A stretch of DNA of 64,000 nt from Flavobacteriales bacterium (GTDB taxonomy: Bacteria > Bacteroidota > Bacteroidia > Flavobacteriales_F > PHOS-HE28). The stretch covers positions 310,001 to 374,000 of the forward strand of contig JAHBUK010000003.1 in assembly GCA_019638115.1 (NCBI GenBank), read 5' to 3'. Below the pieces are notes generated by a model. That model ran no database searches. It saw nothing but the letters and a program-made list of their open reading frames with translations, and was not told the origin of the DNA. Below are positions 2,698-6,612 of the stretch, piece after piece; the first letter of the stretch is position 1, and every line of letters begins with the position of its first letter. Both the position numbers and the translations under genes were made by a program.

Positions 2698-2864
2698 CTA
2701 TCCGAGCCTATGTTCGGAACGGACCAGGGGGGCCATAAGTCCCTTAGGGCTTGCTTCGCTATCTGCGGAGTAGGTTCACCCCCGGTCCGGCTCAGTTCTC
2801 TTCAGTGGTCCATCCTTCACGAGGTGAATTCCAAGTACAGGTGCAAGGCTGGAGCCTGCGCAGC

Positions 2865-3263
2865 TGTGAGTGCAAATATTTTGGTGATAGTTGCAACAGC
2901 GCTGGCCGCGGATGCATATCGCCAGCCTTCCAATACGATCGGTGATGCCGCACTTGCGGCAGTAAACCATGTAGGTGCATAGGCAGCTCGTGTGCATGCT
3001 ACAGGAACTTTTGCAGCTGCATACATTGGCCATGCATGTGCAACTGGTCCTTATGCATGCGTATGGAGGCTTGATGCATTTGCGTGCAACATACAGGCAA
3101 ATGCCCGGCTTGTTCGTGTATGTTCAGGCAAGTACTATGCAAGCGCCGCGTGCATTGTGGCGATCGCAATAGCATCCTCGGCATCCGCGCATTTTGGGGG
3201 TGCAAATGCAACCCACAGATATCAGGGCACGTTTCAGGTCATACAACGCATAACACCTACTGA
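2865..3263. repeat. Degenerate 21-bp tandem array with palindromic TGYRNNYGCA core
   Basis: When the sequence is cut into rows of 21 bases from 2865, about 17 good units (to 3221) and two decaying ones line up. Columns 1-10 read TGYRNNYGCA: column 2 is G in 15/17, column 3 pyrimidine in 17/17, column 4 purine in 16/17, column 7 pyrimidine in 17/17, column 8 G in 15/17, column 9 C in 16/17 (hand counts). Columns 11-21 look unrelated from unit to unit. TGCANNTGCA is its own reverse complement, so the core is dyad symmetric, and 21 bp is about two helical turns. TGCA occurs 17 times between 2842 and 3210. Every reading frame I checked across the array is broken by a stop, so it is probably not coding. 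The array ends at the start of the FN3 gene at 3266. Confidence 0.85.
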
Positions 3264-3265
3264 AC

Positions 3266-3886
3266 ATGGCCAAGGTAAAGGCAGGTCTCCGGGGCTTAAG
3301 CCCTTTGGGTAAGCAGAACAGGGCAGCTATCGTTCATGGCCGGATGAACGGCAATCCGAACTTTCCGAGTCCCTCGCCCAGCATGCTCGAATTCCATGCG
3401 GCCTACATCGAGTTGAAGGCGGCCAACCTGGCAGCGCTGGACCGCGGTCGCATGGCCCTTGCCCGCAGGGACCGAGCGGTGAAGCGCATCGACAATTACC
3501 TCACACGCTTGGCGGGATATGTGAACAGTGAGTGCCTTGGGGATACCCTGAAACTGATGGGGTCCGGCTTCCCCCTGGTGAAGGAAGCAGTGCCCATCAG
3601 TTCACTGCCTCAGCCCTTGGGTCTACAGGCTCGCCCCACGGCATATCCTGGGCAGGTGAAGCTCCGTTGGAACCGCGTACCTGGTACCCTTGTCTACCAA
3701 GTGGAACGTGCTCTGCAAGCACCTGAAGAGACCGATAACTGGGTATTCGTGTCCCTTACCTCGCGCCCCCAATTGATCGTTGAAGGCCTTCCATCGTATG
3801 AGCCACAACGTTTCCGGATCTGCGCAGTAGGCACCAAGGACAATAAAAGTCCATACAGCGCTGTGGCTTTCGGCAAAGCCGCTTAA
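3266..3886 (+). CDS. Small FN3-domain protein of unknown function
   Basis: A 206-residue protein without a signal peptide. Residues ~1-95 are helical and basic, with a GNPNFPSPSPSM segment at ~30-41 followed by an FHAAYIELKAANLAAL helix and a TRLAGYVNSECLGD segment. Residues ~108-203 have the spacing of a fibronectin type III domain (LRWNRVPGTLVYQVE, then FVSLTSRPQLIVEGL, FRICAVGTKDNKSPYS). I recognise this as a Bacteroidota family of ~200-residue FN3 proteins, often multi-copy, with no function I know of. The start follows directly after the 21-bp palindromic array; no -7 box or ribosome binding site is obvious between them. The array could therefore be its control region or a partner locus. 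Confidence 0.8.
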   Translation: MAKVKAGLRGLSPLGKQNRAAIVHGRMNGNPNFPSPSPSMLEFHAAYIELKAANLAALDRGRMALARRDRAVKRIDNYLTRLAGYVNSECLGDTLKLMGSGFPLVKEAVPISSLPQPLGLQARPTAYPGQVKLRWNRVPGTLVYQVERALQAPEETDNWVFVSLTSRPQLIVEGLPSYEPQRFRICAVGTKDNKSPYSAVAFGKAA

Positions 3887-4086: not shown

Positions 4087-6612
4087 TCACCCCTGCACAT
4101 ACACCCGCTTCACACGTTGTGCGATGCCGGTGAGCGCTTCGTAGGGGATGGTGCCCATGGCCTCGGCGAACTCGGTGATGGGGTGCGTGGCATTGAAGAG
4201 CACGGCCATGTCGCCTGCGGTGCAGGGGATGTCGCTTACGTCCACCATCACCATGTCCATGCACACCTTGCCCACGATGGCTGCGGGCCGGCCGTGTATC
4301 CATACGCGGCCCACGCCGTTGCTGAGCCTGCGCGATAGGCCGTCCGCATAGCCGATGGGCAGCGTGGCGATGCGCCGTTCACGCTCCGTGCGCCAGCTGC
4401 GCCCGTAACCCACGGTGGCGCCGGGCTGCAGGGTCTTCACCTGCGCAATGGGTGATCGCAGCGCGGCAACGGGACGCAGTAGTGCGCTTTCGGCGGCGTT
4501 GCAGCCCACCCCGTGCAAGCCGATGCCCAGGCGTACCATGTCCAGGTGTGCTTCGGGAAAACGGCTGATGGCGGCGGTGTTGGCGATGTGGCGCAATGGC
4601 CGGTAGCCGAGCACGGCATCGATGCGGTCGGCCATGTGCGCGAACTGCGCGAGCTGTGCGTGCGTGAAGGTGTCGTGCGCGGGATCCTCGCTGCCCACCA
4701 GGTGCGAGAACACACTGGCCACACGCAGCTTGTGCGCCTGGCCCAGTTGTGTGAGCAGCTCCGGCAGTTCTTCGGCCGTGAAGCCCAGGCGGTGCATGCC
4801 GGTATCGAGCTTCAGGTGTACGGGTGGCATCTCCGGGTGTGCGGCTGCGAAGGCGGCGGCCTCCGCCAGGCTGCGGGCGTCGTAGAGTTCGGCCTCCAGG
4901 CGGTAGCGCAGCATCACCTCGAAGGGCACGGGCTCGGGGTTCATCACCAGGATCGGCAATTGGATGCCCTGTTGCCGAAGTTCCACACCTTCGTCGGCAT
5001 AGGCCACGCCGAGGTAGTGGACCTGCTCATGCGCGAAGAGCCGCGCAAGTTCCACGGCACCACTGCCGTATCCGAAGGCCTTCACCATGGCCATGATCTT
5101 GACGCCTTCGGTGCGCCTCCCTTCGTCCCGATGCCTATCGGGACCGCTCGGGGCAGGTGCAAGGGATACCAGCGCGCGGTAGTGGTTCAGGTTGTGGCGC
5201 AAGGCTTCGAGGTCGATCTCCAGCACGGTGCCGTGCACCTGCCGCTGCCAGCGTTGCACCACCTGTTCCAGCGCGAAACTGCGTGCACCCTTCACCAGCA
5301 CGGCATGGCCGCCGAGCGCTTGCGTGTCGAAGGCGGCCAGCAAGGCCTGCGCATCGGCGAAGCTGCGCATGCCCGGCCCGAAGCGTGCGGCATGGGCCTG
5401 CATGTGCGGTCCCACCCCTAGGATGGTGGATACACCGGCACGCTTCAACAGCTCGGCCACGCGGGTGTAGAGCAGATCCGGCGCATCGCCACTGCCGGCG
5501 ATGTCGGAGAGCACGATGGCCTTGGGCCGGCCACCCGCCACCAGGCCCAGGTGGTCCAGCGCGATGGCGAGCGAGGCCAGGTCGTTGCTGTAGGCATCGT
5601 TCACCAGGGTGCTGCCATGCAGGCCTTCCACGGTCTCCAGCCGCATGGCCACGGGCGCCAGGTGGGGCATGCGTTCGGCGATCCACTGCGGGCCGTGGCC
5701 CAGGTGCAGCAGCAGGGTAACGCAGTGCAGGGCGTTCTCCACGGAGGCCTGGTCGGTGAAGGGGATGCTGAAATCGAAGGAGACGGCATCGTTGATGACG
5801 GTGATGCGGGTGCCTTGCGCGCTGCGTTGCTCGTGCACCACGTGCAGCCAGCCGTTGCGCTCGCGGCTCCACCCGCGCAGGGCCACGCGCTGGTCCAGTG
5901 CGCTCTTGTCCAAGGCCGCGCACACGGCGGGGTGGTCGGCGCAGTACACCAGGGCTTCGGCATCGTTGAAGAGTCGGGCCTTCTCCAGCGCTTTTTCCAG
6001 GTCGCTGTGGAAGTTCTCGCCGTGCGCCGGGCCGATGTTGGTGAACACGCCGATGGTGGGCTTGATGGTGGCGCGCAGGCGGTCCATCTCGCCGGGTTGG
6101 CTGATGCCGGCCTCGAAGATGCCGAGACTGTGTTCGGGGCGCATCTCCCACACGCTAAGCGGCACACCCACCTGCGAGTTCCAGCTGCCGGGGCTGCGCA
6201 CGATGTGCTCGTGGCCGCGCAGGAGCTGGAAGAGCCACTCCTTCACCACGGTCTTGCCGTTGCTGCCCGTGATGCCGATCACCGGTGCGCGGAACTGGCT
6301 GCGGTGCCAGCCGGCCAGGCGTTGCAGGGCGTCCATCGTGTCGCGCACCACCAGCAGGTTGCAGTCGTCGGGGGTGGTCGTGTGGTGGTCCGCCAGCACC
6401 AGGAAGTTGCACACGCCGCGCTGCCGCAGTTCGGGGATGTAGCGGTGCCCATCGTGGCGGTGTCCGCGCAGGGCGATGAAGAGCGTGCTGCCTGCCGGGA
6501 AGGGTTTGCGGGAATCGATGGAAAGGTGCTCGATGCGTGCGTCGCCATCGCCGTGCAGTGTGGCACCCAGCACTTCGGCCAGTTGCGCAAGCCGGTAGCC
6601 GGGGGCGCTCAT
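4087..6612 (-). CDS. murF-alr: Bifunctional MurF / alanine racemase
   Basis: An 841-residue fusion for peptidoglycan precursor synthesis. Residues 1-~455 are MurF, which adds D-Ala-D-Ala to UDP-MurNAc-tripeptide using ATP: the P-loop GITGSNGKT is at 113-121 and [12 protein letters not shown] at ~337. Residues ~460-841 are a PLP-dependent alanine racemase with the PLP lysine in [10 protein letters not shown] (K511). Start chosen at 6612 because [11 protein letters not shown] matches a MurF N-terminus and its ATG overlaps the tdk stop as ATGA, suggesting translational coupling. Oddity: residues ~485-502 ([18 protein letters not shown]), between the first Alr strand and the PLP-lysine strand, look inserted and are encoded by a palindrome at 5125-5144. 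The MurF-Alr fusion is usual in Bacteroidota. Confidence 0.95.
5108..5158. repeat. Palindromic insertion inside the alr domain
   Basis: The core 5125-5144 reads gtcccgat-gcct-atcgggac, an 8-bp perfect inverted repeat. It sits in frame in a segment of murF-alr where racemases normally have only a short loop. The surrounding ~50 bp encode a low-complexity insert. It resembles short palindromes dispersed in many Bacteroidota genomes. Confidence 0.6.

Follow-up and report, generated by a model that had tools for sequence, protein, structure and literature searches.

A phased palindromic array and, downstream of it, the gene of a protein with a fibronectin type III (FN3) domain form a compact module (Table 1), which is bounded on one side by a gene for a T9SS-sorted protein and on the other by a murF-alr fusion gene. 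All coordinates refer to the window, i.e. the whole stretch of 64,000 nucleotides that was analysed. The first core base of the array is position 2865, the same base at which the initial annotation began. In agreement with that annotation, no further gene was found in the gap of about 610 bp between the upstream gene and the FN3 gene. The array does not reach to within a few bases of the ATG as had been claimed; the actual distance is 49 bp. Two features of the surrounding genes were also seen. Positions 880-1075 and 2500-2693, each covering the C-terminal sorting domain and 3' flank of a T9SS-sorted beta-propeller gene, are near-identical, suggestive of a recent duplication or of gene conversion. 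The alanine racemase part of murF-alr contains at about 5100-5165 an in-frame stretch with the palindrome TCCCGATGCCTATCGGGA, possibly an insert.

Table 1. Position of the array, the leader and the FN3 protein gene with its two domains in the window.
Feature	Coordinates	Strand	Remarks
Phased array, 17 units of 21 bp	2860..3216	.	Dyad core TGCAnnTGCA; register unbroken
Leader, 49 bp, array end to start codon	3217..3265	+	No separate operator palindrome found, unlike some homologues
FN3 protein gene, 206 aa	3266..3886	+	No Pfam, NCBIfam, PHROGs or PADLOC family matched (window member)
N-terminal helical domain	3266..3583	+	Helices 13-27, 38-60, 63-90, 94-98; candidate DNA-binding part
C-terminal fibronectin type III-like domain, residues 129-204	3650..3877	+	Pfam in homologues; predicted fold

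The palindromic array reported for this locus is confirmed. With multiples of 21 bp combined, autocorrelation yielded z=12.65, whereas the highest of 1000 dinucleotide-preserving shuffles gave 3.57, and the best shuffle over all lags searched reached 5.02. All 17 units match at least 4 of the 8 bases of TGCA..TGCA (mean 6.1). Only these eight positions are kept per unit, and they form a perfect dyad; pairwise unit identity in this degenerate array averages 0.39. Tandem-repeat and repeat finders run on the window did not detect the array because its units are too diverged, and autocorrelation was used instead.

The FN3 domain is borne out by the homologues, 33 of 42 of which matched PF00041 (FN3) at E<=0.1, and by the predicted fold of the window member, whose C-terminal half is FN3-like (best match to FN3 structures, E 2.6e-3). 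The window member alone is below the reach of Pfam, which gave no FN3 at E<=1. Family members match fn3 and FN3-bearing phage tail families, other matches being scattered and weak. No family homologues were found among phages and viral contigs, and a plasmid search returned only FN3-region matches, to a Leptospira peptidase. AlphaFold2 predicts the N-terminal domain to be a helical bundle (mean pLDDT 85.8, pTM 0.74), for which a PDB fold search using Foldseek retrieved no relative (best E 1.7). Neither Pfam nor the fold search recognised a DNA-binding fold in this domain, and a new fold is not excluded; among 42 members, the RHH and HTH families of Pfam gave nothing beyond single weak matches. 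The most variable block of the protein, residues 61-80, is located on the long third helix. Candidate specificity-determining residues are 63, 66, 67, 55, 58, 9, 10 and others, a list that is only suggestive, given that overall identity is not the same in the two pair sets.

Search of 58 related genomes identified 106 places, of which 91 were analysed with their surroundings (15 were omitted as truncated, without upstream DNA, or weak). Two of the 91 loci have less than 500 bp upstream, leaving 89 to be counted. Of these homologous genes, 85 (about 95%) have, in the 1 kb upstream, an array with a period of 21, 22 or 42-44 bp. The array score threshold of 7 was set after the controls were seen; it is reached by 1 of 60 control 1-kb window stretches and by 2 of 87 downstream flanks. 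The downstream flank of L027 holds a second 21-bp periodic stretch near the contig end (score 21.6), which may be part of a further module. The four exceptions are L014, L017, L044 and L067; in genome G022, L044 and L057 are divergent family genes with one 22-bp array in between, nearer L057. The start codon is probably misassigned in L002, L017, L024, L058, L078 and L082, shifting their gap lengths.

A fresh set of seven previously unused genomes had an array in 35 of 37 loci, and one of the two array-less loci (L243) has a premature in-frame stop in its gene. Excluded before counting were L249, whose contig stops at the gene, and other places that are partial or lack upstream DNA; L241 was counted as an array by score despite Ns and other repeats that disturb the score (by eye, a 22/44-bp array). 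In further families of the phylum, five of six relatives score (L092, L094, L095, L096, L099), the sixth (L093) reaching 6.8, and a more distant relative, L116, has an array on its upstream side. Flanks of other FN3 proteins reach the score in 4 of 52 cases: one is the L116 flank, and the other three are marginal (7.4-7.5), with two of them at one and the same place. When the phylum was searched with a profile of the whole family, ordinary FN3 proteins dominated the matches, which came from 249 of 395 genomes; in five of these (G180, G309, G246, G089, G307) there are full-length relatives at E<=1e-40 from outside the genus. An unbiased scan of 864 kb of the window genome (10 kb counted twice) detected 21/22/42-44-bp arrays at two places only (score >=9), both of which adjoin a family gene; the array of the second family copy is quite different in sequence from that of the window. 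Linkage of array and gene is near-exclusive. The enrichment of arrays upstream of homologues and the lack of arrays without the gene in this own-genome scan uphold the suggestion of the initial annotation that array and protein form a two-part locus.

Arrays are absent from all seven C-terminal gene remnants, and modules therefore decay. Two such remnants, G000:C2:492699-492836 and G017:C20:38018-38155, hold 46 codons of the family C-terminus. Across the genus, the window module is missing from the equivalent site in 29 of 30 loci (30 of 53 places examined), so modules come and go or move. Loci L018, L019 and L002 have their right flank in common (an unknown protein and GNAT) and different FN3 modules, and apparently represent one chromosomal site with exchanged array-gene cassettes. 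The left flanks of L010, L046, L080 and L081 contain restriction-like neighbours (TaqI_C specificity domain, HNH_2 endonuclease).

Between 10 and 27 units (median 15) were detected per array. The register is strict: the period is matched exactly by 1146 of 1228 unit-to-unit spacings, and the remainder consists mostly of half-unit matches summing to it. Dyad symmetry was found at p<0.05 in 41 of 84 array consensuses (L023, with 43 bp, was omitted from both counts). In 66 loci the units repeat every 21 bp and in another 19 every 22 bp (or 43), and this period is inherited with the protein. On the protein tree it changes once, compared with a shuffled mean of 17.4, and none of 500 shuffles was as low; all 22-bp arrays of the fresh set go with proteins starting (A)NIKL or close variants. 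Orthologues can retain the unit: in the window subfamily, which consists of the window protein with three relatives (42-64% identity), TGCAnnTGCA is common to 69 units from 4 genomes. Its core columns carry 0.41-1.39 bits and its outer columns 0.01-0.14 bits, and the outer bases, with a pairwise identity of 0.24-0.29, are no more alike than random. A second subfamily (77 units, 5 genomes) has the core CCCGnnCGGG at 22 bp, its other bases being near random. Same-genome paralogue pairs at 50-75% protein identity have unrelated units in five of five cases, and over all equal-period pairs the correlation of unit similarity with protein identity is 0.19. Array similarity follows identity of the N-domain only weakly (rho 0.16) and no better than that of the FN3 domain (0.17). 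Judged by these comparisons of sequence, the unit sequence is turning over much faster than the FN3-family protein.

Rapid turnover would also fit a neutral or selfish minisatellite that lies upstream of a fast-turnover gene family by chance. Many arrays are near-homogeneous (L021, L027), as from recent tandem duplication. Nevertheless, such an origin is very improbable: old arrays (unit identity ~0.4) retain register and dyad core while their remaining bases are near random, arrays are found upstream and not downstream of the gene, and the period is locked to the protein clade. In old arrays there is no homogenisation and sequence memory is lost, with register and dyad intact; each site is therefore under selection. 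We conclude that the array units are independently selected, helically phased dimer sites that are functionally tied to the FN3 protein. Least credible of all is a function of the array as RNA or as a coding sequence for 7-residue repeats. A unit of 21 bp has the length of 7 codons, and in some homogeneous arrays (L020, L025) a frame is open, but the 22-bp clade cannot be read as repeats in one frame, by which the coding version is rejected. The window array folds as RNA no better than shuffles do (z -0.98), and loop-less dyads suit double-stranded DNA.

The main rival explanation has a regulator as the reader. The array could be an enhancer-like row of operators for a separate regulator, which may be the XRE or REC-LuxR protein encoded next to it or one encoded elsewhere, with the FN3 protein as the regulated product only. 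A LuxR- or XRE-type regulator gene is present within the fetched 1.5-2 kb in 40 of 91 loci. XRE genes adjoin the array in 14 of 19 loci of the 22-bp type (13 of 18, plus L023) versus 1 of 66 loci of the 21-bp type, and in 13 of those 14 loci of the 22-bp type they lie upstream of the array on the strand of the FN3 gene. Loci with an XRE gene next to the array, almost all of them in the 22-bp clade, include L013, L023, L024, L033, L048, L052, L055, L056, L057, L069, L071, L072, L084 and L089. REC-LuxR-like genes occur near 23 loci of the 21-bp type and near none of the 22-bp type. Both regulators are very diverse, as expected of a co-diversifying reader (mean identity of the GerE part 0.28 over 91 pairs from 14 loci; XRE 0.41-0.60 in one trio), and they diverge to the same degree as the FN3 protein. 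On the other hand, 51 of 91 loci have neither type within 1.5-2 kb (other HTH types were mostly unsought), and the array accompanies the FN3 gene whatever the context. Some loci (L045, L002, L058, L072, L079) also have a palindrome or palindrome pair between array and ATG, which, where regulators exist, is a more natural operator; L072 and L079 share such a palindrome and have different arrays. These locus-specific palindromes are possibly operators of the promoter. At the window locus, nine neighbouring ORFs were tested with Pfam, out to about 12.5 kb on the upstream and 6 kb on the downstream side of the array, and none gave a transcription-regulator domain, so the window pair appears self-sufficient. 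Taken over the family, a separate regulator as the reader is unlikely, though by no means negligible; it remains a live alternative where a LuxR- or XRE-type neighbour is present (40 of 91 loci) and is weak for the window.

The FN3 protein itself is most likely the binder of the array, an inference made without binding data. We favour, with modest confidence, an explanation in which phased palindromic sites are bound by the neighbouring FN3 protein to form a fibre; binding and function are both inferred. The array would be a row of palindromic binding sites exactly two helical turns apart, and with this spacing all sites face one side of the DNA. Dimers of the N-domain (dimerisation is likewise inferred) would occupy each dyad core. 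Neighbouring dimers would be locked at 21 bp, or at 22 bp in one clade, by protein-protein contacts of a geometry that the family inherits. About 10-27 dimers would presumably line up in this way into a regular nucleoprotein fibre, placed upstream of the promoter from which the FN3 protein is made. Autoregulation of the FN3 gene is the least that would be expected of this fibre, which could also act as a DNA-anchored scaffold or positioning site; any such role is inferred. Spacing would be set by the protein-protein contacts and sequence by the contact residues. Exact spacing together with free sequence is what a cooperative dimer oligomer on one DNA face requires. With geometry as the only fixed element, the protein and its recognition sequence can drift in step and same-genome paralogues can gain private arrays, while tight linkage may keep site and reader together. 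The earlier suggestions that the array is recognised by, or diversifies with, its gene fit these data, but DNA binding by the protein remains an inference.

Several findings count against binding by the FN3 protein. The N-domain has no recognised DNA-binding fold, and array similarity follows it only weakly and no better than the FN3 domain. The unrelated arrays of paralogues at 50-75% protein identity mean that the model needs very fast specificity change. Regulator genes adjoin 40 of 91 loci, and the 22-bp period coincides with the XRE type.

If the protein does read its own array, Bacteroidota contain over a hundred natural protein-DNA pairs of the same geometry and different codes, a natural experiment on the evolution of DNA specificity and a source of orthogonal DNA scaffolds. 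A function would then be sought for a protein family unnamed in Pfam and NCBIfam. The arrays also illustrate that strongly selected regulatory or structural DNA can escape repeat finders because only phase and dyad survive. In the searchable literature (open-licence PMC papers only), no description of such an array-FN3 system was found, and the protein-DNA array system is apparently undescribed so far. A broader interpretation is possible, although we hold it only tentatively: an undescribed class of chromosomal nucleoprotein arrays in Bacteroidota with inherited geometry and free sequence, in which FN3 proteins would form fibres on private arrays, with up to about 18 orthogonal pairs per genome. 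The two partners of a pair would arise together, move between sites as a cassette and disappear together. Each pair would be a self-contained module, whether centromere-like, scaffold or selfish, with a recognition code that co-diversifies with the protein.

Two familiar kinds of repeat locus were rejected as candidates. A CRISPR-like array is incompatible with contiguous 21/22-bp units without spacers, and no cas-type Pfam family was found among the neighbours tested. A REP/RAYT or MITE element was rejected on the grounds that the exact doubled motif TGCAnnTGCA-N11-TGCAnnTGCA has a single occurrence in the 4.06-Mb genome, without mismatch and inside the window array, and that the neighbours tested contain no transposase domain. 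The sopC repeats of the F plasmid and replication iterons are phased rows of repeats of about 22 or 43 bp, each with an inverted repeat. Unlike these, the FN3 arrays are chromosomal and unconserved in sequence between copies, and no Rep or SopB relative was found. We know of no relation between StbA of plasmid R388 and the FN3 protein. StbA acts via two sets of direct repeats (stbDRs) just upstream of its own gene, which are plasmid-borne 9-bp repeats two bases apart (PMC3098194), unlike the 21/22-bp chromosomal FN3 arrays. BrickBuilt of Porphyromonas gingivalis, a minisatellite-MITE with a 23-nucleotide repeat region, does lie on a Bacteroidota chromosome (PMC4596501). It differs from the FN3 arrays in being a transposable element, whose single repeat family is present at 19 places beside varied genes, and the word 'fibronectin' has 0 occurrences in the paper (PMC4596501).

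Another close comparison is with the partition loci of plasmids. The FN3 modules differ from them in lacking a motor NTPase of the ParA, ParM or TubZ type in the nine window ORFs and in 10 recurrent-neighbour proteins, and the FN3 protein has no recognised RHH or HTH fold. They are also chromosomal, with many private copies per genome and dyad sites at 21/22 bp, unlike the plasmid loci. In type Ib/II par loci (parC, pSM19035 parS, TP228 parH), a small centromere-binding protein binds tandem sites that precede its gene and represses its own promoter, with multi-dimer assembly on phased repeats (PMC5016525). The likeness lies in the cis-acting repeat array upstream of the gene, which the FN3 family also has.
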